A stretch of DNA of 38,072 bases, taken from positions 1-38,072 of the forward strand of contig JAGQLS010000004.1 in the NCBI GenBank assembly GCA_020429045.1, written 5' to 3'. The notes beneath the pieces were generated by a model that saw only the letters and a list, made by a program, of their open reading frames with translations, ran no database searches and was not told the DNA's origin. Made by a program: the position numbers and the translations under genes. This document shows positions 7,516 to 34,296 of this stretch, piece by piece. Every line of letters starts with the position of its first letter. Position 1 is the first letter of the stretch. Source of the DNA: Candidatus Woesebacteria bacterium. GTDB lineage: Bacteria > Patescibacteriota > Microgenomatia > UBA1406 > GWC2-37-13.

Positions 7516-8094
7516 TTATTTCATGACGTTTTCTTCCACGCGCTTGTAGCTTACAAGCTCGCCTTTATCAAACCACAGATCGACTTCGTATTTTGCTTCT
7601 TCTAGCTCTCCTGAAGCGTGCAAAAGATTTTTAATTGGTCTGTTGCCAGTGTTTGCAAGATACGATGAGTCAAAAGAGTAATCGCCACGAATGGTTCCCG
7701 GAGAAGAACTAAGTGGTAACGTGTGTCCAACCAACTTGCGCACTAATTCTACTGCGTGTGGCCCTTCAAGAACAATCGCTATGACAGGATCTGCCGTAAT
7801 CATATCGACTAACCACTCACGAATCTTGAGACCAATCACATGCGGGTCATTTGATCCAAATTCTTTTTGAGGGTCAATGCCCATATTTTGATAGTTTTCA
7901 AGGGTTTTTTTACCCATACCGTTGATGAATGCTTCACGTGAAGCTGGATAATGTTTGTCTGCCAGTTCTTTCGAGACATTGAGCATTTTCATAGCAACTA
8001 TTTTGAGACCTACACGTTCAAAACGTTGAAGAATTTCGCCGACAAGACCGCGAGCAACAGCGTCGGGTTTAAAAACAACAAGTGTTTGTTCCAT
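7516..8094 (-). CDS. ndk: Nucleoside diphosphate kinase
   Basis: The ATG at 8094 gives 192 residues starting MEQTLVVFKPDAVARGLVGE; the upstream TTG/ATG-like extension to 8121 would cover the promoter. The active-site His is His159 in NLLHASG, and GTIRGDYS (133-140) is the usual nucleotide-binding strand. The enzyme moves a phosphate between nucleoside di- and triphosphates. It is about 40-50 residues longer than the common bacterial form because of an insertion at about 52-97 (between HYPASREAF and MITADPV). A TATACT lies 8 nt before the start (8103-8108), so the message may be leaderless. Confidence 0.95.
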   Translation of the reverse strand: MEQTLVVFKPDAVARGLVGEILQRFERVGLKIVAMKMLNVSKELADKHYPASREAFINGMGKKTLENYQNMGIDPQKEFGSNDPHVIGLKIREWLVDMITADPVIAIVLEGPHAVELVRKLVGHTLPLSSSPGTIRGDYSFDSSYLANTGNRPIKNLLHASGELEEAKYEVDLWFDKGELVSYKRVEENVMK

Positions 8095-8157
8095 GTATAA
8101 AAAGTATAAATTAGTAATCAACGCTCCATTGTATCATACTTAAGTTCATCGATTTGA

Positions 8158-10990: not shown

Positions 10991-12052
10991 TTAAGCTGAT
11001 ATTTTGCGCTCAGAAAACAAAATCCAATTAGCTAAATCTGCTGATTCCAAATCAGATTGTTTTGATATTTGAGAACCTTGCTCTCCCCATCTATAGCCAC
11101 TATCTGCAAGTTTTTGCAATGAATCTTTCCGCCTCCATTGTCTAACCGAAAAGTCCAAACCTTGTCCTAACAATTTATAAAATAACCCTTTGATTTTGTC
11201 TAAATTACGATTTGGATTAATTAGATAATCAGCAATTCGAACTCCATGAGCTTTTGGGTACATAACAACAATTTGTGATTCATCTCTCTCTGATTGCGAT
11301 GATGGTGAATATTCTTCAGTTAACTGCTCTATTCCTCTAGCTGCATATAATCTTCGGGCTTGTTCAAAATCTAAAATAAATTTATCAAGTTTGCTAACTT
11401 TTTCTGTATCATAGATCCCTTTATTAAGTGCCATTTGATACAATAATCCTATTAACCATGTTACATTTGCCATCGCAAGTACTCGAATTACTTCTGGATC
11501 AGCACCAACTGACGCCCATATAATCGTAGACATGTTTGGTAAATGTCTTAAAAATTCCCTAAAAAACATATATTTAGCTTTATTGGAAATGTCAGCAACG
11601 GCCACTGGTTTGCTTGTTTTGCTGCAAAGGTTTGAGATTTTTTCAGCATATTCAATCCGATTTGCAAAATCTCTACCGAGCCTCTTTATATACGTAAGAA
11701 GACCCGTTCGTTCCATATTGCTCTTCAATTCTGGATAAAAATACTCCGCTACCAAAACTCTTGTTTTTGGTGATCGAATGTACGCTTCAAATATTGGATT
11801 AATTGCCTCATCAGAATGTTCAAAATCAATACTTATCACATCTATTCCATTTACTCTTACCCCAAGAACCTTCTCGCTAACAAATTTCTGAACATCATCA
11901 GGACTAAATAACCCTTCTTGAATTGCGCTTGAAAAGTCCTTTTGTGCACGAGTTATAAGTTCATCTTGGAGAATATATTGTCGATGAGAATGAATCTCCG
12001 TCGACTGAAGAGCTGATTCACCCGATTCTAACCCTGAAGCATCATCTGCCAT
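10991..12052 (-). CDS. Hypothetical protein, 353 residues
   Basis: I do not recognise a family with confidence. The N-terminal 30 residues are Ser/Glu rich and probably disordered. Two short beta-strand-like segments end in acidic residues (VLVAEYFYPEL about 102-112, VAVADIS about 147-153), and a late YPKAHGVRIADYL carries a His; this spacing vaguely recalls the TraB/ChaN/EreA group, but the match is too weak to assign. There is one moderately hydrophobic segment (VTWLIGLLYQMAL) and no signal peptide. It is a single gene between tRNA-Lys and the HD gene, with a palindrome in its upstream region. Confidence 0.75.
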   Translation of the reverse strand: MADDASGLESGESALQSTEIHSHRQYILQDELITRAQKDFSSAIQEGLFSPDDVQKFVSEKVLGVRVNGIDVISIDFEHSDEAINPIFEAYIRSPKTRVLVAEYFYPELKSNMERTGLLTYIKRLGRDFANRIEYAEKISNLCSKTSKPVAVADISNKAKYMFFREFLRHLPNMSTIIWASVGADPEVIRVLAMANVTWLIGLLYQMALNKGIYDTEKVSKLDKFILDFEQARRLYAARGIEQLTEEYSPSSQSERDESQIVVMYPKAHGVRIADYLINPNRNLDKIKGLFYKLLGQGLDFSVRQWRRKDSLQKLADSGYRWGEQGSQISKQSDLESADLANWILFSERKISA

Positions 12053-12309: not shown

Positions 12310-15093
12310 CTAAGATTGCAAAACAAAATTTAGGATCTTGCCTGGGATATAAATCGTCTTGTATTTTTTACCTGAAAGATAGGTTTTTATACGTTCGTTT
12401 GATAATGCTTGCTCAACCACAACACGCTCTTCTTTTGATGTAATCTGTATCGTTGAACGAACTTTACCGTCAACTTGCACAGGTATAGTAAAGGTCTTTT
12501 GGACAACATGAATATCGTCTACCTGGGGCCAAGATTGCACATGTATTGATTCTTTCTCTCCCAAAACCTTGCGCCAAATCTCTTCGGTTATGAATGGTGC
12601 AAACGGAGCAAGCAATTTCAAGAATTTTTTTGCAGAAGCCAGGTCAAGCTCTTCGTTGTACTTCTCCATATCGTTAAGAAGCGACATCATGGCTGCGATG
12701 GCGGTGTTGTATTTTAGACCCACGATGTCTTGGGTGACTTTCTGAATGGTTTTATTAAGAGATGATGCAAGTTTCGCAGAAATTTTGGCTGTTTGATCTT
12801 TGGGTAAAGAATGAAACAAATGCCAGATGCGACTCAAAAAACGATATGGGCCTTGGATGTTGCTCTCATTCCATGGCTTGTCGGCTTCGATTGGACCCAT
12901 AAACATCTCATAAAGTCGCAGTGTGTCTGCGCCGTACTCTGCAATCACGGTGTCGGGGTTGATGATGTTTCCTCTGCTTTTGCTCATGCGTTTTCCATCT
13001 GGGCCCATGATGATACCTTGGTGGCGCATCTTAGGAAATGGTTCGTCAAGTTTGGTATAGCCTTCGTCGCGCAAAAATTTTGTTAAGAAACGGCTATAAA
13101 GTAGGTGTAAAACGATATGTTCCGGACCAATCATATACAAATTTGGTGGCATCCACGTTTTAACTCCCTCTGGATTGGCGAAATGCTTCTCATCTCGTGG
13201 CGAAGTATAGCGGAAAAAATACCAGCTCGAATCGACAAATGTGTCCATAGTATCGTACTCTGGAGTCCACCCCTTGCCATATAATGTTTCAACTCGTTCT
13301 TTGAACTCTTTAGAAAGTCGCAAAGGACTTTCGCCCGTTGGGAGAAAATCGACATCAGTGGGTAATAACCAAGGCAAATATTCTTCCTTAACAACATGAG
13401 GCTTACCATCAGGATCATACACGATAGGGATAGGTGCTCCCCAATAGCGCTGTCTCGAAATTAACCAATCACGGAGTTTATAATGCACCTTTCGTTTTCC
13501 CCAACCCTTCTCTTCTAAATAGTCCATCATACTTTTTGTTGCCTGGTGGATATCTTGTCCATTCAAAAACGTAGAATTGATCATCGCGCCATTTTCTTCT
13601 TGGATCATAAGGTTGATATACCAATCATTTGAAGCAAGATAGAGATACAAATTTTGGGTTTTTTCCAATGGATCATTATTATATTCAGCACATAATTTCC
13701 CTATTTCTTTTTTGTTGCCTTCGCTATAAACATATTCTGATATGTTTTCTTTTGTATCTTTGAAACAAAACCATATTTCTTCTCCGACGAGTTCATTCCA
13801 ATATCCCGAAGAAAGTTTTTTTCGAATAAGCTTTTTGTATTCTTCTATTGATTTTTTTGGAATTTCGAGTAAGCGAACATTGTTCTCTTTTTGCTCTGCA
13901 ATGATTACGCCTATTGATTCAAGATCCTTATTTGAAATATCATCTGCACCCATGAGATAACTTCTCCACATTGAAATGTTTTCACTCTTAACAACTTGAA
14001 CAACTTCGATATTAAACGTCTGTGCAAATTCAAAATCGCGCAAATCGTGACCAGGGACACCAACAACTGCTCCTGTACCTACATGCGCCAGAACGAAATC
14101 TGAAATGTAAATCGGCAATTGTTTACCAGTCAGTTTATGATCGATATAAAAACCAGTAAACACTCCTGTTTTTTTTCTTCCTTCTTCAGTTCGTTCAATA
14201 TCTTTCTTATTTTTGGCTGTTTCTACATATTTTTCTATTTCCTGTTTTTTCTTGTCGTCGACGTGCTGAAGGATTTTTTCAACCAGCCGATGCTCAGGGG
14301 CAAGTACGATGAACGTAGCACCAAAATTTGTATCTGGCCGAGTAGTGAAACAAGTAACTTCGTCTTTGAGCTCTGGGATTTCATAATGTATATCAATTCC
14401 AAATTTCTTCCCTATCCAATTGAGCTGTTGGTGCTTGGTGGCTACGGGCCAGTCGACCTGGTTTAGCCCTTCGATAAGCTCTTCGGCATATTCAGTAATC
14501 TTAAAAACCCACTGGTCCATCTCTTTTTGTACCACTTCATTATCACAACGCTCGCATAGGCCGTTCACGACTTGTTCGTTTGCTAAAACCGTTTGACAGC
14601 TCAGGCACCAATTGACCGGCGCCTTCTTTTTGTAAGCTAAGCCTTTTTTGTAGAGTTGGAGAAATAACCACTGGGTCCACTTGTAATACTCAGGGTGTGA
14701 AGTGGCTATTTCGCTCTCCCAATCATATGAGATACCCAATCGGTTGATCTGTTTTCTAAATGTGTTGATTGCTTTTTTTGTTGTTTCTGCAGGATGGACC
14801 CCGCTCTTTATCGCAAAATTTTCAGCTGGCAAGCCGAACGCATCCCAACCAACGGGAAAGAAGACTTTTTTTCCTTGCATGCGGTAATAGCGGGCTAAAA
14901 TGTCAAGTGCGGTTTTGGCTTCAACGTGCCCCACGTGTAATCCGCTCCCCGAGGGATAGGCAAAAGCGAACAACAAGTATTCCTTATTGTCTGAAGTGAC
15001 GTCTTTTTGCTCAAACGCAGATTGAAATAGTCCTTTTTTCTTCCAATCTTCGATCCACTGCTCTTCAAATGTGTTGGGTAAATATTTTTGCAT
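12310..15093 (-). CDS. leuS: Leucyl-tRNA synthetase
   Basis: Starting at the ATG at 15093 (MQKYLPNTFEEQWIEDWKKKG) the enzyme has 927 residues; the frame extends 25 codons upstream into the promoter and that extension is rejected. The class I signature HVGH (53-56), zinc-type cysteines 163/166/180/183, the editing-domain block VVGVPGHDLRDFEFA, LRDWLISRQRYWG and the MSKSRGN loop are all present. It is a bacterial-type LeuRS. An extra segment of roughly 130 residues (about 368-496) lies between the editing domain and the NGAMINSTFLNGQ block; it contains YWNELVGEEIWFCF and is lysine/glutamate rich. The gene is divergent from the CoA fusion gene. Confidence 0.95.
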   Translation of the reverse strand: MQKYLPNTFEEQWIEDWKKKGLFQSAFEQKDVTSDNKEYLLFAFAYPSGSGLHVGHVEAKTALDILARYYRMQGKKVFFPVGWDAFGLPAENFAIKSGVHPAETTKKAINTFRKQINRLGISYDWESEIATSHPEYYKWTQWLFLQLYKKGLAYKKKAPVNWCLSCQTVLANEQVVNGLCERCDNEVVQKEMDQWVFKITEYAEELIEGLNQVDWPVATKHQQLNWIGKKFGIDIHYEIPELKDEVTCFTTRPDTNFGATFIVLAPEHRLVEKILQHVDDKKKQEIEKYVETAKNKKDIERTEEGRKKTGVFTGFYIDHKLTGKQLPIYISDFVLAHVGTGAVVGVPGHDLRDFEFAQTFNIEVVQVVKSENISMWRSYLMGADDISNKDLESIGVIIAEQKENNVRLLEIPKKSIEEYKKLIRKKLSSGYWNELVGEEIWFCFKDTKENISEYVYSEGNKKEIGKLCAEYNNDPLEKTQNLYLYLASNDWYINLMIQEENGAMINSTFLNGQDIHQATKSMMDYLEEKGWGKRKVHYKLRDWLISRQRYWGAPIPIVYDPDGKPHVVKEEYLPWLLPTDVDFLPTGESPLRLSKEFKERVETLYGKGWTPEYDTMDTFVDSSWYFFRYTSPRDEKHFANPEGVKTWMPPNLYMIGPEHIVLHLLYSRFLTKFLRDEGYTKLDEPFPKMRHQGIIMGPDGKRMSKSRGNIINPDTVIAEYGADTLRLYEMFMGPIEADKPWNESNIQGPYRFLSRIWHLFHSLPKDQTAKISAKLASSLNKTIQKVTQDIVGLKYNTAIAAMMSLLNDMEKYNEELDLASAKKFLKLLAPFAPFITEEIWRKVLGEKESIHVQSWPQVDDIHVVQKTFTIPVQVDGKVRSTIQITSKEERVVVEQALSNERIKTYLSGKKYKTIYIPGKILNFVLQS

Positions 15094-15118
15094 AGTAATT
15101 TTGAAATAGAATGTTTGT

Positions 15119-15124
15119 ATTATA
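15119..15124 (-). promoter_or_regulatory. -10 element of leuS
   Basis: The minus strand reads TATAAT 25 nt before the leuS ATG, giving a predicted leader of about 19 nt. No strong -35 box is seen. Confidence 0.45.
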
Positions 15125-15194
15125 CGGTATAATTGATCCGTATACCAATCTCTAGCACGATTGTGCAAGATCTATATCTTACCATTTATTTACT

Positions 15195-15206: not shown

Positions 15207-16235
15207 ATGAGTACGCGAAAACACTATGCGCATACTGGTTTGGGCGGAACATTTGATCGTCTGCACAAAGGGCACGAATACCTTTTGAAAAAAGCTTTTG
15301 AAGAGGCCGAACATGTTACGATCGGTGTGACAAAAGAGTCATTGCTTACAGAAAAATATCTCGCTCAGACCATTCTACCCTTTGAAAAGCGCCGTCAAGA
15401 ACTCAAGGAATTTTTAGCATCAGAAGGTTTTGTAAATCGTGCCCAGATTATTGCGCTTGAAGACATTTACGGTATTGCAGACAAGGATGAAACGATGGAG
15501 GCGCTTGTGGTTACCGATGCAACAAAAGCAAATGGAGAAAAAATAAATGCAGCTCGCACAGAATGTAGTTTAGAAAGGCTTGATTTGGTACACGTGCCAT
15601 TTGTGAAGGATGAAGATGGGGTTGATATTATTTCTTCTGAACGGATTCGCAAAGGAGAAATTGACAGAAATGGTTTGCGATATATGAGCATATTTGAAAA
15701 ATCTGACGTTTTGGGTTTGCCGTCTTCGCTCCGAGAGCAGCTTCGAGAACCCTTTGGGAAATTGATTGTTGGGGATGAAAATGATCTTTCCAAAGCTGCA
15801 AAGTGTATGAAAAAGTATATGCAAAACAAAGCTCCAGTGATGATAATTGCAGTTGGCGATATCGTCACGCAAACGTTAGAAAATGTTAATTTAGAGCCTC
15901 AAATATCTATCATTGATTTCAGAACACAACGACAAAAAATTGCACCTTTTGATAGAAAAATGCGCGGAATCGTCAACGAGCCTGGTCAAATTCATAAAAA
16001 AGCTGTTGTAAAAATACAAAATAGTATACATGCGCTGTTAAAAAATAATGAACAAAGTCGTATTATTATCGACGGTGAGGAAGATTTACTCGCACTTCCG
16101 GCTATGCTTCTTGCACCTCTTGGAAGTATTGTCGTTTACGGCCTCCGTCAAAAAGGCGTGGTGGTTGTGCAGATTGAGGAGGGATTTAAAAAAGTTATTA
16201 AATCATTGGTAGAAAAATTTGATAATTTTTCTTAA
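15207..16235 (+). CDS. Fused archaeal-type phosphopantetheine adenylyltransferase and GTP-dependent dephospho-CoA kinase
   Basis: The 342-residue protein joins two enzymes for the last two steps of coenzyme A synthesis. Residues 1-160 are a nucleotidyltransferase with GGTFDRLHKGH (H20-x-G-H23) and the SSERIRKGEIDRNG block (143-156), as in the archaeal/eukaryotic PPAT group (COG1019), not bacterial CoaD. Residues about 180-335 match DUF359 (COG1909), the archaeal GTP-dependent dephospho-CoA kinase: GKLIVGD, VGDIVTQTL, IIDFRTQRQKI, VNEPGQI, then DGEEDLLALPAMLLAPLGSI and VVYGLRQKGVV. Bacteria normally use CoaD and an ATP-dependent P-loop CoaE, neither of which resembles this protein. The assignment rests on motif recognition. 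It precedes an archaeal-type tyrS on the same strand. Confidence 0.88.
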   Translation: MSTRKHYAHTGLGGTFDRLHKGHEYLLKKAFEEAEHVTIGVTKESLLTEKYLAQTILPFEKRRQELKEFLASEGFVNRAQIIALEDIYGIADKDETMEALVVTDATKANGEKINAARTECSLERLDLVHVPFVKDEDGVDIISSERIRKGEIDRNGLRYMSIFEKSDVLGLPSSLREQLREPFGKLIVGDENDLSKAAKCMKKYMQNKAPVMIIAVGDIVTQTLENVNLEPQISIIDFRTQRQKIAPFDRKMRGIVNEPGQIHKKAVVKIQNSIHALLKNNEQSRIIIDGEEDLLALPAMLLAPLGSIVVYGLRQKGVVVVQIEEGFKKVIKSLVEKFDNFS

Positions 16236-16396
16236 CATTGCTCAGTTGTTACTACTAAGTCAAATGAAGAGGTTGATGAGCGAGTTGATGAAAAGCTAAA
16301 GCTGTTTCTGGTTCAAATAAAAATTGGTCTGAAGAAACTTGCAAGTTTTCAGGAATAATTCATTTTACCATGCCTTATCTTTTTTATTCTCACATC

Positions 16397-16426
16397 TTCA
16401 CAAAAAACAAGAATCCTTGTTACAAT
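16397..16426 (+). promoter_or_regulatory. Promoter of tyrS, leaderless layout
   Basis: TTCACA (16397-16402), an 18-bp spacer and TACAAT (16421-16426) are followed by only six bases before the ATG at 16433. The spacer upstream (16236-16396) holds no convincing gene. Confidence 0.6.
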
Positions 16427-16432
16427 ACATAC

Positions 16433-17542
16433 ATGAACATCGATGAAAAAATAGCGCTCATTCAAGAAGTCGGAGAAGAAATCGTCACCGAAGAAGACTT
16501 ACGCAAGCTCTTTGAGTCAGACGAGCCACTCATCACCTATGATGGCTTTGAACCCTCGGGACAAATGCATATCGCCCAAGGAATCATTCGTGCTATAAAC
16601 ACCAACATCTTCATAAAAACCGGATTCACCTTCCGCATGTGGGTGGCAGATTGGTTTGCTTACCTCAACAACAAAATGGGCGGAGACCTCAAAAAAATAC
16701 AAACCGTGGGCAAATATTTCATCGAGATTTGGCGGGCTTCCGGCATGGATCTTGAACATACCGAATTTTTGTGGACCAGCGACTTCATAGAAGACGGCGA
16801 ATATTGGAAAACTATCATGCGTATAGCCAAAACTACCAGCCTGAACCGCATTTTACGCACTGTTGAAATCATGGGCAGAAACGAGCGCGAAACTTTGTCA
16901 GCCGCACAAATCATTTATCCGTGCATGCAAACAGCAGACATTTTCTACACCATGCAGGCGCGCGTGACCCAACTAGGCATGGATCAACGCAAAGTAAACA
17001 TGCTCGCCCGCGAAATCGGCGAAGAGCTTGGCTTCTGGAAACCGGTTGTAGTGAGCAATCATATGCTCATGGGGCTCAACGCACCGCCAAAAGATATACA
17101 AGATCCCGTCGAACGCGCGATCGCCATGAAAATGTCCAAATCCATGCCCGATAGCGCGATATTTATGACCGATACCACAAAAGATATTGAGCGCAAAATT
17201 CAAAAAGCATACTGTCCCGAAGGCGAGATAAAACACAATCCCATTCTTGAATATTGTAAATACATCATTTTCCGAGCACACTACTTGAAGGGTCAAGAAA
17301 ATATTCTCAAAGATGGATTCCTCGTCAAACGCCCGGCAAAATTTGGTGGCGATGTGAGCTACCAAACATACGAAGAAGTAGAAAAAGCCTTTGCAGAAAA
17401 AACGCTTTTTCCCCTTGATCTCAAAAATGCCGTTGCCCAATATATTGACCGATTGATCACTCCTGTGCGCAAACATTTTACTGAAAACAAAGAAGCAGCC
17501 CAACTCCTCAAACAAGTGCAGTCCTTCCGCATCACACGGTGA
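16433..17542 (+). CDS. tyrS: Tyrosyl-tRNA synthetase, archaeal/eukaryotic type
   Basis: The ATG at 16433 gives 369 residues (MNIDEKIALIQEVGEEI); a start 21 codons earlier lies in the promoter. The active site has YDGFEPSGQMHIAQG, the form of the HIGH motif in archaeal and eukaryotic TyrRS, and MKMSKSMPDSAIF for the KMSKS loop. The LGMDQRKVNMLAREIG helix and PVVVSNHMLMGL strand also follow that clade. There is no C-terminal S4 domain, which bacterial TyrRS normally carries. Codon choice is more GC3-rich than most neighbours, which could reflect high expression or later acquisition. Confidence 0.95.
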   Translation: MNIDEKIALIQEVGEEIVTEEDLRKLFESDEPLITYDGFEPSGQMHIAQGIIRAINTNIFIKTGFTFRMWVADWFAYLNNKMGGDLKKIQTVGKYFIEIWRASGMDLEHTEFLWTSDFIEDGEYWKTIMRIAKTTSLNRILRTVEIMGRNERETLSAAQIIYPCMQTADIFYTMQARVTQLGMDQRKVNMLAREIGEELGFWKPVVVSNHMLMGLNAPPKDIQDPVERAIAMKMSKSMPDSAIFMTDTTKDIERKIQKAYCPEGEIKHNPILEYCKYIIFRAHYLKGQENILKDGFLVKRPAKFGGDVSYQTYEEVEKAFAEKTLFPLDLKNAVAQYIDRLITPVRKHFTENKEAAQLLKQVQSFRITR

Positions 17543-17617: not shown

Positions 17618-19477
17618 ATGTCCAGCACCTTGCTTGAGCTTACTAAACGCATTCGCTACGAAATTCTTACCATGACAACCCAAGCAGGTTCCGGACACCC
17701 TACTTCTTCTCTTTCTGCAGTCGAACTTATGACCGCACTATGGTTTGATGGGCATTACCAATACGATTTTAAGCAACCACGCTACATTTTTAACGATCGT
17801 ATGATTTTTTCAAAAGGTCACGCATCTCCCCTATTGTACGCACTCTATGTCGCAGCAGGCGCAGCAAGTCACGAGGATGTCATGGGTTTACGAACGAAAA
17901 CGTCTGACTATGAAGGCCACCCTACTCCTCGCCTCCCGTGGGTCGATGTTGCCACTGGTTCGCTTGGACAAGGTTTGTCTGTCGGAATTGGTATGACGCT
18001 TGGTATAAAACGCCACATGAAGATGCAAAAGAAAACACCCAAACAAGAACCACGCGTCTTTGTGCTCATGGGAGATTCTGAATTCAGCGAGGGACAAATC
18101 TGGGAAGCTTTACAACTTGGCAGCCATTACAAACTCAACAATCTTGTTGGGATTTTGGATGTAAACCGCTTGGGGCAACGGGGTGAAGCCATGCTCGGGT
18201 GGGATGTCGCGACCTACGAAAAACGAATCAAAGCGTTTGGCTGGGAAACTATTGTGGTAAAAAAAGGAAATGACCTTGAAACTGTTTGTAAAGTATTTAA
18301 GGATGTCGATAAACTAACAAAAAAAGGCAAAAAACCGGTTATGATCATTGCCAAAACGACAAAAGGTGCTGGAATTTCCTCCGTAGCAAATAAAGACAAC
18401 TGGCATGGCAAAGCGCTCCCGCAAGATATGCTTGAGGCAGCACTTACGGAACTTGGTGAAGTGAGCAAAACACTGACGGTCAAAGTCAAAGAACCGGAAA
18501 AAGTCCGCATCCATCTGACGGTCGGGCGTCATAAAATTATCTTAAACTCCCCGTACGATTTGAAGTCGGCAAAACCTACCGCCACACGACAGGCTTATGG
18601 CGAAGCCCTCAAACTGATCGCCGAAGACCCTCGTGTCATTGTCCTTGATGCAGAGACCTCAAATTCAACGTACGCAGAAAAAATTAAGGAAGTCTCGCCA
18701 GAAAAATTCTACGAGATGTTTATTGCAGAACAAAATATGATGTCTGTTGCGCTCGGATTTTCTAAACTTGGTTTTCTTCCTTTTGCTTCGAGTTTTGCTG
18801 CATTTCTTGCAAGAGCATATGATCAGATTCGGATGTTTCAATACTCAGAGCCTGACGTGAACGTTGTGGGATCGCACGCAGGCGTCTCGATCGGCGAAGA
18901 TGGATCTTCTCAAATGGCTTTGGAAGACCTGGCGATGTTTCGCGCATTGCTGGAATCGAAAGTGCTCTATCCATCTGACCCCAATGCAACCCTCAGGTTG
19001 GTCAATGAAATGAGAAATGACGTAGGAATTTCCTATCTCCGATTGACTCGCATGAAAACACCGGTTATTTATACCAAACATGAAAAATTCAAAATTGGCG
19101 GGTCGAAAGTGCTCAGAGAGTCAAAAAAAGATAAAGCCGTCGTTGTCGCGGCAGGCATAACCGTGCATGAAGCTCTGGCGGCCCACGAAATGCTCATAGA
19201 AAACGGCACAGCGATTGCCGTAATCGATGCTTATTCGGTTAAGCCCATCGACAAAATCACGATTCGCGAATACGCCAGGCGCACGGGAAAAGTAATTATC
19301 GTCGAAGACCACTATCCGTACGGTGGCTTAGGCGATGCGGTGCGCGAAGCACTCGAAGGTATGAATGTAAAAATTGTACACCTTGCTGTCAGCCACATCC
19401 CCCATTCAGGAAAGCCTCAGGAATTGCTCAAAATGGCGGGAATTGATGCCGCAAGTATCGCAAAAGCAGTGAAATAA
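17618..19477 (+). CDS. tkt: Transketolase
   Basis: The 619-residue protein holds both halves of transketolase in one chain: the N-terminal thiamine-diphosphate domain with TQAGSGHPTSSLSAVELM (His27), ATGSLGQGLS and the GDSEFSEGQIWEAL magnesium/ThDP motif, then the pyrimidine-binding domain (AEQNMMSVALGFSKLG) and the C-terminal domain (IIVEDHYPYGGLGDAV). It exchanges two-carbon units between sugar phosphates in the non-oxidative pentose phosphate pathway, important in small genomes that lack other routes to ribose. It is convergent with the ATPase gene after a 38-bp gap without a visible terminator. Confidence 0.95.
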   Translation: MSSTLLELTKRIRYEILTMTTQAGSGHPTSSLSAVELMTALWFDGHYQYDFKQPRYIFNDRMIFSKGHASPLLYALYVAAGAASHEDVMGLRTKTSDYEGHPTPRLPWVDVATGSLGQGLSVGIGMTLGIKRHMKMQKKTPKQEPRVFVLMGDSEFSEGQIWEALQLGSHYKLNNLVGILDVNRLGQRGEAMLGWDVATYEKRIKAFGWETIVVKKGNDLETVCKVFKDVDKLTKKGKKPVMIIAKTTKGAGISSVANKDNWHGKALPQDMLEAALTELGEVSKTLTVKVKEPEKVRIHLTVGRHKIILNSPYDLKSAKPTATRQAYGEALKLIAEDPRVIVLDAETSNSTYAEKIKEVSPEKFYEMFIAEQNMMSVALGFSKLGFLPFASSFAAFLARAYDQIRMFQYSEPDVNVVGSHAGVSIGEDGSSQMALEDLAMFRALLESKVLYPSDPNATLRLVNEMRNDVGISYLRLTRMKTPVIYTKHEKFKIGGSKVLRESKKDKAVVVAAGITVHEALAAHEMLIENGTAIAVIDAYSVKPIDKITIREYARRTGKVIIVEDHYPYGGLGDAVREALEGMNVKIVHLAVSHIPHSGKPQELLKMAGIDAASIAKAVK

Positions 19478-26661: not shown

Positions 26662-28044
26662 ATGATCGATTTTCTTTTTACTAAAACCCCGCTTTTGTTT
26701 CTTGTTCAAAATTTTTGGAGGGATGAAGCCTTTACCTATGTCGTGTCACGCAACAACATTGGAGATATTATTAAACTGACGGCAGGCGATTTCAACCCAC
26801 CACTCTACTATGTACTGATACATTATTGGATGATGGTGTTTGGCTCTTCGGAATTTGCCATGCGCATGCTTTCGTTTACTTTTTTTATCGCTACTGCTTA
26901 TGTTGCCTATCTGATCATGCACACTGTCTGGAAAATATCCGAAAAGAAAAGTATTATATACGTCGGGTTATTTTTGTTTAATCCATTTTTGTTGACGTAC
27001 GCCTTTGAAGCGCGCATGTATAGTATGCTTGCCTTTTTTGCATCGCTTTCCTACTACGCCTTTCTTACAAAGAAACGTCGACTGAACATAGCAAGCTGCG
27101 TCCTGGGCTTGTACACGCACTATTTTATGGTGTTTATTTTACTCACTCAAGCAATCGATTATTTCACTTCTCAAGAGGCTATGATGTTTTTTGCCCGTAT
27201 CTTCAATTTAAACAAAGCGAAACATTTTTTTACTGACGTGAAAAAAAGCATAGTAAAAGACTGGTTTATGATCACTTTGTGGTTTCTACCATGGATCATG
27301 TATGTTTTCTATAATCATGATTTCTCGTCGCAGGATTTTTGGGTTACCGTCCCTCCGTTTAAAGATATTATTTACATACCGTTTGTTCTATTTACCTCCT
27401 ACGAACGTGTTTTTGGGAAATATTATCATCAAGAAGCCGGTTTCACGACAGCACACATGCGCTTGTTGATAATACTTGTTTTCATTGTGTTTGTTGGATT
27501 TTTATTTTGGAAGAAATTCAAAAATCGATCTCATATCAAAAGCCTGCTACTTTGGTCTTTTGTAACGCCCGTTATACTCTTCTCACTTTCGTTTGTAACG
27601 ACGCCCTATTATGTCCCGCGCTATTTTATCGCAAGCGCTGTTGGCTTCATGCTCCTACTCATATATTCCATTGAGTCTATGCGCATACATCCCCTCCAGA
27701 TTTTGGTTATATTCGTCCTCCTCTCAAACACGTGGTCGTTTCACGTACTCAATCTCAAATATCGCTCAAAACGGACTGTAAAAACAATGTATGCTGAAAT
27801 TGCCAGCCTTACCAAACCAATAGATTATATCTATTTAACCGATGAATTGGATTTTCACCTTGCGCAGTACTATTTTCGCCACGACGCGCAAATCAAATTA
27901 TTTAATGCGTCCTATGAAGAACTTCCACAATACATTGGGAAAATTACCATTTCCCCCGAAAATCTTACCACAACAATCCCTACATATCCTTCAAAAGCGT
28001 TTGTTGTATATTATGACCATTTCGATATTCTTTCTCAGCACTAG
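26662..28044 (+). CDS. GT39/ArnT-like membrane glycosyltransferase
   Basis: The 460-residue polytopic protein has around ten hydrophobic segments. The first outer loop holds WRDEAFTYVVSR, where Asp21-Glu22 is the acidic site of GT-C enzymes, and FNPPLYYVLIHYWMMVFGSSEFAMRMLS follows as in the PMT/ArnT family. It would use a lipid-linked sugar at the outer face of the membrane to glycosylate a protein or lipid. It follows the GT2 gene, which could make the donor or primer, but the pair's product is unknown. Confidence 0.85.
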   Translation: MIDFLFTKTPLLFLVQNFWRDEAFTYVVSRNNIGDIIKLTAGDFNPPLYYVLIHYWMMVFGSSEFAMRMLSFTFFIATAYVAYLIMHTVWKISEKKSIIYVGLFLFNPFLLTYAFEARMYSMLAFFASLSYYAFLTKKRRLNIASCVLGLYTHYFMVFILLTQAIDYFTSQEAMMFFARIFNLNKAKHFFTDVKKSIVKDWFMITLWFLPWIMYVFYNHDFSSQDFWVTVPPFKDIIYIPFVLFTSYERVFGKYYHQEAGFTTAHMRLLIILVFIVFVGFLFWKKFKNRSHIKSLLLWSFVTPVILFSLSFVTTPYYVPRYFIASAVGFMLLLIYSIESMRIHPLQILVIFVLLSNTWSFHVLNLKYRSKRTVKTMYAEIASLTKPIDYIYLTDELDFHLAQYYFRHDAQIKLFNASYEELPQYIGKITISPENLTTTIPTYPSKAFVVYYDHFDILSQH

Positions 28045-30586: not shown

Positions 30587-31495
30587 CTAGGATTTTTCTT
30601 GTGAAAGCATAAGTTCCATCTCTCTATCTAGTGCAATCGAACCAGGAGAAAATAAAGCGAAATTTTCGACTACCCAGACAATGAAGTCTTGAGCTTGATC
30701 AGGATCAATGTCAAAACCACTATACCTCGCTAAGTCTATAATGTTACCTGCTTCTATGTGTCGACCTGTAGGAACAAATTTATGGTCTTTAGTTTGACAA
30801 TTTTCTTTTGCGGCAAACTCCTCAAATTCTGGATCGGAAATTATATCACCTTCATCGTCGTACTCGTGTACATGAAACACATCATTAAATAGACCAAATA
30901 TGATTCGCTGTGCTAAAGGAGCATACGGATCGTCATAATAATGATCTCTAGCTACATAACTCGGTCTGCCGTACATTAATACAATCCTGTGAACTGCATA
31001 AGGTAACGGATCGGTATCAATACCATTTTCATCTATATTCATTTCATCGACAATTCCATAAGGATCTCTGTAATTGCCGAATGCCATTAAATAAGGGATA
31101 ATTCCGGCTCGTTTCAGTGCGCGTTGACGAGCTTGGCTGTCAAGATTTGTGTCTGCCGCTTGCAGCATCCAAAAAGCTATAACATCATAGAGTTGAGAAC
31201 GGTTTTTACCTTCTGGTAGACTGTTTTCAGGGTTAAAATTAGTAAATTGCTTAAACCTCCTAACATAGTCTTGAAAAACACGATTGTTTTCAAAATTTAA
31301 GGTTCTCATATACAATGTAAATAAATCCTGTTGGGTTATTACTATTTGATAGGAAGACATATTAGGACTAACATATTTTTTATCTGGAAGAATATTTAAA
31401 AATGGAAATACCCGAGCAGCGAAATTTTCCTTTAACGCTTGAATATCTATCGGTTGGGGTTCAATTTCAACCCTCGTTTTATCGGCTTCAGACAT
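30587..31495 (-). CDS. Hypothetical protein, 302 residues
   Basis: I do not recognise this family. The protein is acidic, apparently soluble and without signal peptide or membrane segment. It has an odd central run of Asp/Tyr-rich loops (ARDHYYDDPYAPLAQ, VHEYDDEGDIISDPEFEE). It is the only minus-strand gene between rplA and comEC, lies between the two copies of the regulator tail, and is divergent from the intact regulator (100 bp between starts). A TATAAT at 31525-31530 (minus) could be its -10 box. The position suggests that it was brought in or kept together with the duplicated regulator. Confidence 0.7.
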   Translation of the reverse strand: MSEADKTRVEIEPQPIDIQALKENFAARVFPFLNILPDKKYVSPNMSSYQIVITQQDLFTLYMRTLNFENNRVFQDYVRRFKQFTNFNPENSLPEGKNRSQLYDVIAFWMLQAADTNLDSQARQRALKRAGIIPYLMAFGNYRDPYGIVDEMNIDENGIDTDPLPYAVHRIVLMYGRPSYVARDHYYDDPYAPLAQRIIFGLFNDVFHVHEYDDEGDIISDPEFEEFAAKENCQTKDHKFVPTGRHIEAGNIIDLARYSGFDIDPDQAQDFIVWVVENFALFSPGSIALDREMELMLSQEKS

Positions 31496-32638: not shown

Positions 32639-33286
32639 ATGAAGTCTCTTATTTTTTTGCTTGCCCTAACACTCGCCTTTGCTCAAGTTGTGCAGCCAGT
32701 TTTTGCTTCCCAGACTGTTGAAATGGAACATTTTAGCATCGAATTTGAGCTGTTGTCTGAAGAAGAATTACAGCAAGAACCTGCGCCATTAGTGCCTGCG
32801 GTAGAATCTTTACCGGTAAGTTCGTTTACATTCACCGTTTCAAAATCGCAACTGATCGTACCAGACGTGCAAGGGGCTGCTACAGAAGATACGATCGTTC
32901 TTTCTGTTGACGGCAGCAACGAAGTAGGATACCAGATAAGCGCTTTGGAAAAAACACCGTTTGTCTCGTTTGCTCAAGACCTGATACCGCCTACAAGCTG
33001 TAACGGTGGCAACGATACATGTACGGCTTCGATGGCAAAAAAATGGGACAATGGTAAAAAATTTGGGTTTGGCTACGCTCTCAAAGGAGACATTATACCT
33101 GCCGATTTTATTGATGAGACGTATTTTCGTCCGTTCGCCCTCAATAAAAATATTGTGCTTGCAAATAGACAAAATCCTACCGGCAAAGATAACATAACGA
33201 TGAAACTGCGTATAAATACACCGGCATCACAACCCGAAGGTAATTATCAAACAGTTATTCGCCTGATTGCATTTCCCAACCTATGA
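32639..33286 (+). CDS. Secreted WxL-domain-like surface protein
   Basis: The ATG at 32639 gives 215 residues with a clear signal peptide (MKSLIFLLALTLAFAQVVQPVFA); the GTG at 32618 would lie inside the promoter. The mature part is a beta-rich domain beginning VSSFTFTVSKSQLIVP and ending PEGNYQTVIRLIAFPNL, which resembles the C-terminal strand order of WxL domains (G-x-Y-x-T/A-x-x-x-x-L), though the Trp-x-Leu motif itself is absent. A Cys pair (CNGGNDTC) may form a disulphide loop. It overlaps the next gene by 4 bp (ATGA), so the two are translated together. Exact binding partner unknown. Confidence 0.7.
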   Translation: MKSLIFLLALTLAFAQVVQPVFASQTVEMEHFSIEFELLSEEELQQEPAPLVPAVESLPVSSFTFTVSKSQLIVPDVQGAATEDTIVLSVDGSNEVGYQISALEKTPFVSFAQDLIPPTSCNGGNDTCTASMAKKWDNGKKFGFGYALKGDIIPADFIDETYFRPFALNKNIVLANRQNPTGKDNITMKLRINTPASQPEGNYQTVIRLIAFPNL

Positions 33287-34296
33287 AAAAAAGTATCATC
33301 TTTGCTGTTGTGGCATTTTGTATTCTGTCAATGACACAAACTGCCTGTGTGCAGGCCTTTTCGGTCTCGACAAGCCCGCCGTACTATGCGATGAGTGCTC
33401 CTCCTGGGCAGTCCTTCAGCTTGCCCATAAAAATAACAAATCTCAAAGATCCTTTCAATGCTCAACTTTCAATCCAAAAGCTTGTTGTGGTAGACGAACA
33501 AGGATCGTTGAGTCTTGAACCGCTTGCCGAGGAACATGCTGTTCATTTTTTCATACGCGGTGATGATGAAATACAAACTGACAAGCCTTTTCTTTTCCGC
33601 ACTCAAAGCTCGCATACCATAACGCTTGATGTGTATATTGATCGGGAAGCAAATGAAAACGATTATTATTATGCGCTTGTTGCTGAAGCTGTCGGGAGTC
33701 AAGACCAAACACGGGGGTTGCATATTTCTCTCCAGCCTGCGATTGCGGTACCACTTTTTATTTCTGTTGCACAAAATGAAATACCATACAAGGCGAAAAC
33801 AGTCTTTTTCAAACCGCGCGATAGGCGTTTTGATGCTATCGTGCGCCTTGGAGATAATGTGTATATCGCCGATTCGCTTGAGCCACTCAAACTCGTTTAT
33901 ACCCTTGCAAACACAGGTATTCACCGTTTCGAGACGATGACAAAACTGTCAACACGCTTTGCTTCTCCATTATTCACCAAAAAAAATGAAATTGCCCTCA
34001 AAAAAACAGCCATTCTCCCCAGCACGCAAAAAATGCTCCATGATACAGATAATGCTGACAATGATTTCACATCAGAGCTCCCGAGAAAAATACTGGGGAT
34101 GTATACAGTAGAAAGTGCAACAACCATTGGCGACGGAAATGCTGTACTGTTTGAACATATCACGATCGTGATATTTCCTTTTTCAGTAATTATTCTTTTG
34201 ATCGTAGTTGTCCTCAGTATATTGATATACAGGAAATCGCATACTTCAACGACAAAAATACCTCGTGGACGAACCTCTATTTTTATGAAAAAATAG
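33283..34296 (+). CDS. Exported, membrane-anchored DUF916-like protein
   Basis: The 337-residue protein has a signal peptide (about 1-25), an extracellular beta-sandwich region, and one C-terminal transmembrane helix (about 292-313) followed by a basic tail. The beginning FSVSTSPPYYAMSAPPGQSF with a proline/glycine step followed by ITNLKDPFNAQLSIQKL matches the layout of DUF916 proteins (WxL-interacting proteins) of Gram-positives. The region NDYYYALVAEAVG fits the second Ig-like domain edge. By analogy it would hold the neighbouring WxL-like protein at the surface; that is inference from family and gene order. Confidence 0.7.
   Translation: MKKSIIFAVVAFCILSMTQTACVQAFSVSTSPPYYAMSAPPGQSFSLPIKITNLKDPFNAQLSIQKLVVVDEQGSLSLEPLAEEHAVHFFIRGDDEIQTDKPFLFRTQSSHTITLDVYIDREANENDYYYALVAEAVGSQDQTRGLHISLQPAIAVPLFISVAQNEIPYKAKTVFFKPRDRRFDAIVRLGDNVYIADSLEPLKLVYTLANTGIHRFETMTKLSTRFASPLFTKKNEIALKKTAILPSTQKMLHDTDNADNDFTSELPRKILGMYTVESATTIGDGNAVLFEHITIVIFPFSVIILLIVVVLSILIYRKSHTSTTKIPRGRTSIFMKK

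Follow-up and report, generated by a model that had tools for sequence, protein, structure and literature searches.

The question raised by this locus is whether a single bacterial polypeptide performs the last two steps of coenzyme A (CoA) synthesis with domains of archaeal type. The original prediction joined a phosphopantetheine adenylyltransferase (PPAT) of the archaeal and eukaryotic group to a DUF359 kinase, set this against the unrelated CoaD and CoaE that bacteria normally use, suggested that the gene was transferred from an archaeon or else retained, and raised the possibility that dephospho-CoA is channelled.

The fused gene and its product

Positions 15207–16235 (+) of the window, by which we mean the whole 38,072-nucleotide stretch of DNA that was analysed, form one unbroken frame of 342 amino acids. 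On the evidence of profiles and solved relatives it encodes an archaeal-type PPAT followed, in a single chain, by a GTP-dependent dephospho-CoA kinase (DPCK), and archaeal fusions align with it over the whole length. The PPAT domain occupies residues 7–156 (15225–15674, +), where the NCBIfam model for the archaeal-type enzyme, PRK00777, scores 139.9 bits (cut-off 104); the Pfam nucleotidyltransferase model PF01467 matches residues 13–149 at 40.8 bits (cut-off 21), and phmmer finds the Archaeoglobus PPAT-family structure 3do8 at residues 11–156 (E = 1e-16). The DPCK domain spans residues 167–342 (15705–16232, +). Here the Pfam model for DUF359 (PF04019) gives 101.6 bits (cut-off 25) at residues 220–338, covering model positions 1–125 of 126, which is the whole domain, and the structure of a GTP-dependent DPCK (8jvc) is matched at residues 171–329 (phmmer, E = 1e-19). 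A Pfam profile search of the protein gave no match to PF01121, the CoaE-type P-loop kinase, and the bacterial CoaD model TIGR01510 reaches 16.6 bits on this gene, under its cut-off of 103.3. The predicted union of the two domains in one bacterial chain is therefore confirmed, PRK00777 and PF04019 both scoring above cut-off on a bacterial contig, and the C-terminal half holds a full DUF359 domain.

An assembly accident is ruled out as the source of the fusion, since the same architecture recurs in independent loci and in relatives. All of the best 80 loci of a contig scan encode the PPAT-DPCK fusion, and relatives in the host's group show it in every case where the gene is not truncated by a contig end. 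These loci were gathered by an alignment scan of genome contigs; a scan with the protein alone gave none.

Both nucleotidyltransferase motifs (GTFDxxHxGH and SSxRIRxG) are present and are conserved across 41 fused proteins. In the first, GTFDRLHKGH (residues 14–23; 15246–15275, +), which binds the nucleotide, G14, T15, F16, D17, H20, G22, and H23 are invariant in the 41 aligned sequences; in the second, SSERIRKG (residues 143–150; 15633–15656, +), S144, R146, R148, and G150 are at least 90% conserved. In the kinase half, alignment equates Asp218 (15858–15860, +) with the catalytic Asp48 of the Thermococcus kodakarensis DPCK, Asp237 (15915–15917, +) with Asp67, and Asp293 (16083–16085, +; within GEEDLLALP) with Asp125, and all three are invariant in the same 41 proteins. 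The corresponding residues of the Thermococcus enzyme, TK1697, were probed by mutation, D48A and D67A severely slowing growth (PMC6650551). An AlphaFold model of the fused protein, built on 41 relatives, has a mean pLDDT of 94.4 and a pTM of 0.90. It superposes on 8jvc with a VIA Z of 23.8 and an rmsd of 1.7 over 161 residues (approximately 27% identity) and on 3do8 with a VIA Z of 17.0, and Foldseek agrees with the superpositions on solved archaeal enzymes for both halves. Since the catalytic residues are invariant in both halves, both look active, as far as sequence comparison can indicate.

Genomic setting

The host genome amounts to 1.19 Mb in 58 contigs and is 95% complete, with a contamination estimate of 0.35%. 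The divergent neighbor of the fused gene is a leuS of bacterial type (12310–15168, −; TIGR00396 leuS_bact, 878.9 bits), and synteny shows that about 35 relatives likewise have a leuS close to the fused gene. The next gene downstream encodes an archaeal-type tyrosyl-tRNA synthetase (TyrRS; 16370–17542, +, its start perhaps being the ATG at 16433), which scores 358.7 bits with PRK08560, above cut-off, against 109.9 bits with the bacterial tyrS model TIGR00234, under the cut-off of 113.8. It is followed by a transketolase gene (17618–19477, +), recognized by a profile match and by synteny. The order leuS / PPAT-DPCK / TyrRS / transketolase is kept in two independently assembled Roizmanbacteria loci (L039 and L071). 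Elsewhere the window holds mreB, nusG, and genes for ribosomal protein L1, a sortase, a bacterial A24 prepilin peptidase, and a Y-family polymerase. This is a bacterial contig. Roizmanbacteria are the nearest named relatives, and we infer that the host is a Roizmanbacteria-like member of the Microgenomates (CPR, Patescibacteria).

Other genes of the window deserve a brief record. A nucleoside diphosphate kinase gene (7516–8121, −) carries an internal extension of approximately 40 residues, and its best model, PRK14543, reaches 142 bits, less than the cut-off of 287. Long open reading frames lacking a Pfam match lie at 10991–12052 (−), 26662–28044 (+), 30587–31495 (−), and 33283–34296 (+), for the second of which NCBIfam gives a weak match to a mannosyltransferase.

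Coenzyme A pathway of the host and its relatives

Profile searches of the 95%-complete host genome found neither coaD nor coaE above cut-off, and no separate pair accompanies the fused gene. CoaE (PF01121) scores at best 12.1 bits (cut-off 27), and for CoaD (TIGR01510) the highest score is the 16.6 bits of the fused gene itself. With DUF359 matched and both bacterial genes below cut-off, neither of the results that would have refuted the original prediction was obtained. Two weak matches in the host were rejected: the best for CoaE (L002) resembles a uridine kinase, and one for CoaD (L006) is another small nucleotidyltransferase. Profile search found no CoaB (PF04127) in the host genome either; because the assembly is 95% complete, the absence of coaB, coaD, and coaE is not absolute. 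Eleven other genomes that carry the fused gene, some bacterial and some archaeal, are likewise without CoaE.

Among 57 sampled genomes of the host's group, only G054 possesses strong CoaD and CoaE, and it is without DUF359; two DUF359 carriers (G007 and G015) show weak CoaE-like matches just above cut-off, with neighbors in frame. In G054, a class-level relative without the archaeal-type fusion, the bacterial CoaD and CoaE appear to be joined in one 380-residue frame (C3:55389–56405), as if these two steps had been fused a second time, independently, out of unrelated components.

Strong CoaB was found in six of the 57 genomes, each of which also has the fused gene (P = 0.008), and this ties the fused gene to CoA synthesis. 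In most carriers, as in the host, no CoaB is seen, from which it follows that salvage of 4′-phosphopantetheine is probable; the host probably finishes CoA from the salvaged intermediate. A probable consumer of CoA in the host is an ADP-forming acyl-CoA synthetase (708-residue frame, 151 bits), though across the relatives such enzymes show only a loose association with the fused gene, which is not used here as proof. Since about half of the relatives are without the fused gene, CoA synthesis is dispensable in the group.

In at least 10 distinct Roizmanbacteria-like genomes the chain is longer still, an archaeal-type NMN adenylyltransferase (NadM) preceding PPAT-DPCK in one frame of about 486–555 residues (L016:376–1881, L019:397–1854, L030, L045, L047, L048:4001–5509, L050, L051, L053, and L056). 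NAD and CoA are two cofactors built by adenylyl transfer. The NadM part scored 126–132 bits with PRK01153 (cut-off 127) in the three triple fusions tested. A further locus, L128, is probably another example cut by the contig end, and in six more (L014, L023, L025, L032, L038, and L040) a separate nadM lies immediately upstream of PPAT-DPCK. Profile search of the window's own genome gave no match to NadM. No description of a NadM-PPAT-DPCK protein was found in the open-licence literature.

Distribution and origin

The fused-gene family (DUF359) is present in 27 of the 57 sampled genomes of the host's group, and the named relatives that carry the fusion include Roizmanbacteria, Levybacteria, and Gottesmanbacteria; on these grounds the fusion is inherited in Microgenomates and not a one-off. 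These three groups recur among the best 80 loci together with Beckwithbacteria and Chisholmbacteria, single entries from Kaiserbacteria, Paceibacterota, and Saccharibacteria, and archaea of the Poseidoniales, Micrarchaeota, and Aenigmatarchaeota. Over the host's phylum the family is rare, DUF359 occurring in 12 of 380 genomes. In the archaeal phylum to which locus L061 belongs it occurs in 93 of 196 genomes, mostly in frames of 160–260 residues, that is, unfused, and only seven of these genomes have it in frames of 300 residues or more. The control set gave DUF359 in none of 10 bacteria and in all four archaea. Viral contigs and phage records matched at most the nucleotidyltransferase half, and that weakly; none matched the fusion. 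One of the seven longer archaeal frames, that of the DPANN DUF359 protein L145, has 308 residues, the N-terminal 140 or so of which are not PPAT, and one genome, G030, contains two PPAT-DPCK fusion genes (L008 and L034) that fall in different tree groups.

In the kinase-domain tree the window's protein lies within a CPR-only group of 36 (SH-aLRT 98); the DPCK alone is too short for the deep branching to be settled. A tree of the whole protein, made by a quick method, likewise has a weak backbone, and because this is so in both trees no donor is named. The CPR rows do not form one clean group, the free trees needing three to five CPR label changes overall (three in the whole-protein tree), yet a single CPR clade is not rejected (p-AU 0.416). 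In both trees Kaiserbacteria L060 pairs with archaeon L062 (support 93–94). Of the two origins originally proposed, transfer from an archaeon is the likely one in view of the distribution; the trees point to neither a donor nor a number of transfers.

Three other accounts of the gene's presence were weighed. Descent of the gene from the common ancestor of bacteria and archaea, with retention since, would suit its spread over several CPR groups, a single CPR clade that is not rejected, and a root that cannot be placed, but we consider this improbable given the outcome with the control genomes, the rarity of DUF359 in the phylum, and CPR rows that sit with DPANN rows, as L060 does with L062. Much harder to choose against is independent acquisition by several CPR lineages from different archaea, with function unchanged. 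The number of label changes and the two unlike copies in G030 speak for it, as do the several independent transfers of TyrRS proposed by Mukai et al. (PMC5370408); the starred branches, on the other hand, force no more than one origin and a single clade is not rejected, so that we think this somewhat less probable than its opposite. It could also be supposed that the contig is of archaeal (DPANN) origin and was placed in a bacterial genome during binning, in which case there would be no bacterial enzyme: cross-contamination between CPR and DPANN bins is on record (PMC5370408), and the fused gene and the TyrRS are both archaeal in type. To this we give almost no credence. The window's leuS, mreB, nusG, sortase, and prepilin peptidase are bacterial, nearly half of the related genomes have the family, and the contamination estimate is low; contamination is refuted by the conserved gene order in the independent assemblies and by the occurrence of the fused gene in single-contig genomes (G007, G025, and G053).

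Proposed function

The N-terminal, archaeal-type PPAT would convert 4′-phosphopantetheine and ATP to dephospho-CoA and pyrophosphate, and the C-terminal DUF359 domain would then phosphorylate the 3′-hydroxyl of dephospho-CoA to give CoA, most likely with GTP as donor. Homology makes this function highly likely; both activities are deduced from relatives, and GTP is assigned as donor by analogy with an archaeal enzyme of approximately 27% identity. In this Microgenomates (CPR) bacterium the fused enzyme would replace CoaD and CoaE and, CoaB being missing, would draw upon 4′-phosphopantetheine salvaged from outside. The lineage presumably acquired the gene, already fused, from an archaeon, with vertical descent and frequent loss thereafter. 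Taken as a whole, this explanation, of a bifunctional CoA-finishing enzyme of archaeal acquisition that stands in for CoaD and CoaE and is fed by salvage, seems to us very probable.

It is conceivable that the PPAT works as proposed while the DUF359 half has a different substrate, or uses a different donor, for instance ATP. The low identity to the characterized kinase leaves room for this, and DUF359 is distantly related to the thiamine pyrophosphokinases (PMC6650551). We rate it as unlikely, since the domain is fused to a PPAT, retains the three invariant aspartates, matches the solved kinase fold over almost its entire length, and has no other CoaE beside it in the host genome. The bifunctional CoA-finishing enzyme is thus the reading we prefer. 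A wider proposal, which we regard as evenly poised, is that the Microgenomates lineage gave up CoaD and CoaE and finishes CoA from salvaged 4′-phosphopantetheine through an enzyme that derives from archaea and consumes ATP and GTP; in part of the lineage this would be a trifunctional NadM-PPAT-DPCK that completes both NAD and CoA.

Comparison with known systems

The function of DUF359 was predicted and shown by Makarova et al. in 2019 (PMC6393860) and Shimosaka et al. in 2019 (PMC6650551), the latter having identified the archaeal kinase via a DUF359-PPAT fusion in uncultured archaea. Sequence searches of 2019 found no homologues outside arCOG04076, which occurs in nearly all archaea (PMC6650551). 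The presence of the fusion in a bacterium, as originally predicted, holds good, but the architecture is not new because the same fusion has been published from archaea (PMC6650551, PMC6393860), and among the Microgenomates it is widespread. Open-licence papers yielded no account of a CPR bacterium with this fusion or with DUF359, though an earlier one may exist. Within the literature searched, three points are added here: that the fusion occurs in bacteria, that CoaD and CoaE are lacking there, and that a triple fusion exists. The fused gene is real and well supported, and constitutes a bacterial branch of a known kind of archaeal enzyme.

A GTP-dependent kinase described as archaeal is thus found in many CPR bacteria, and a host in which neither coaD nor coaE is detected offers a clear example of exchange between domains of life at an essential cofactor step. 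It suggests that one self-contained two-domain module can be transferred and take the place of two bacterial genes in a single step, and that reduced CPR genomes may depend on salvaged 4′-phosphopantetheine. Pipelines that seek only coaD and coaE will wrongly score such genomes as unable to finish CoA. For study of the fused mechanism, these presumably mesophilic proteins provide material.

Bacterial CoaD and CoaE catalyze the same two reactions, but neither profile reaches its cut-off in the host genome and the CoaE kinase is unrelated to DUF359. Eukaryotic COASY is likewise a bifunctional PPAT-DPCK, with the last two CoA steps in one chain and a PPAT of the same broad group; its kinase half, by contrast, is an ATP enzyme of the CoaE P-loop type with no relation to DUF359, and the present protein is not a member of that family. 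The archaeal-type TyrRS of Roizmanbacteria and other CPR, attributed to DPANN archaea by Mukai et al. in 2017 (PMC5370408), is another archaeal-type gene in these bacteria, and a homologue adjoins the fused gene here; TyrRS is, however, a translation enzyme, and that paper does not concern CoA synthesis. TK1697 of T. kodakarensis (8jvc) shares the fold and the three catalytic aspartates of the kinase half, although it stands alone in Thermococcus and GTP dependence has been measured only in TK1697. The closest parallels are the archaeal PPAT-arCOG04076 (DUF359) fusions, such as AIF21550.1 from group II/III Euryarchaeota (PMC6650551), which have the same two domains in one chain; the Poseidoniales homologues align along the whole fused protein at about 31–36% identity. 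The present gene differs from these in its CPR host, in its bacterial neighbors, and, in part of the lineage, in the extra N-terminal NadM.
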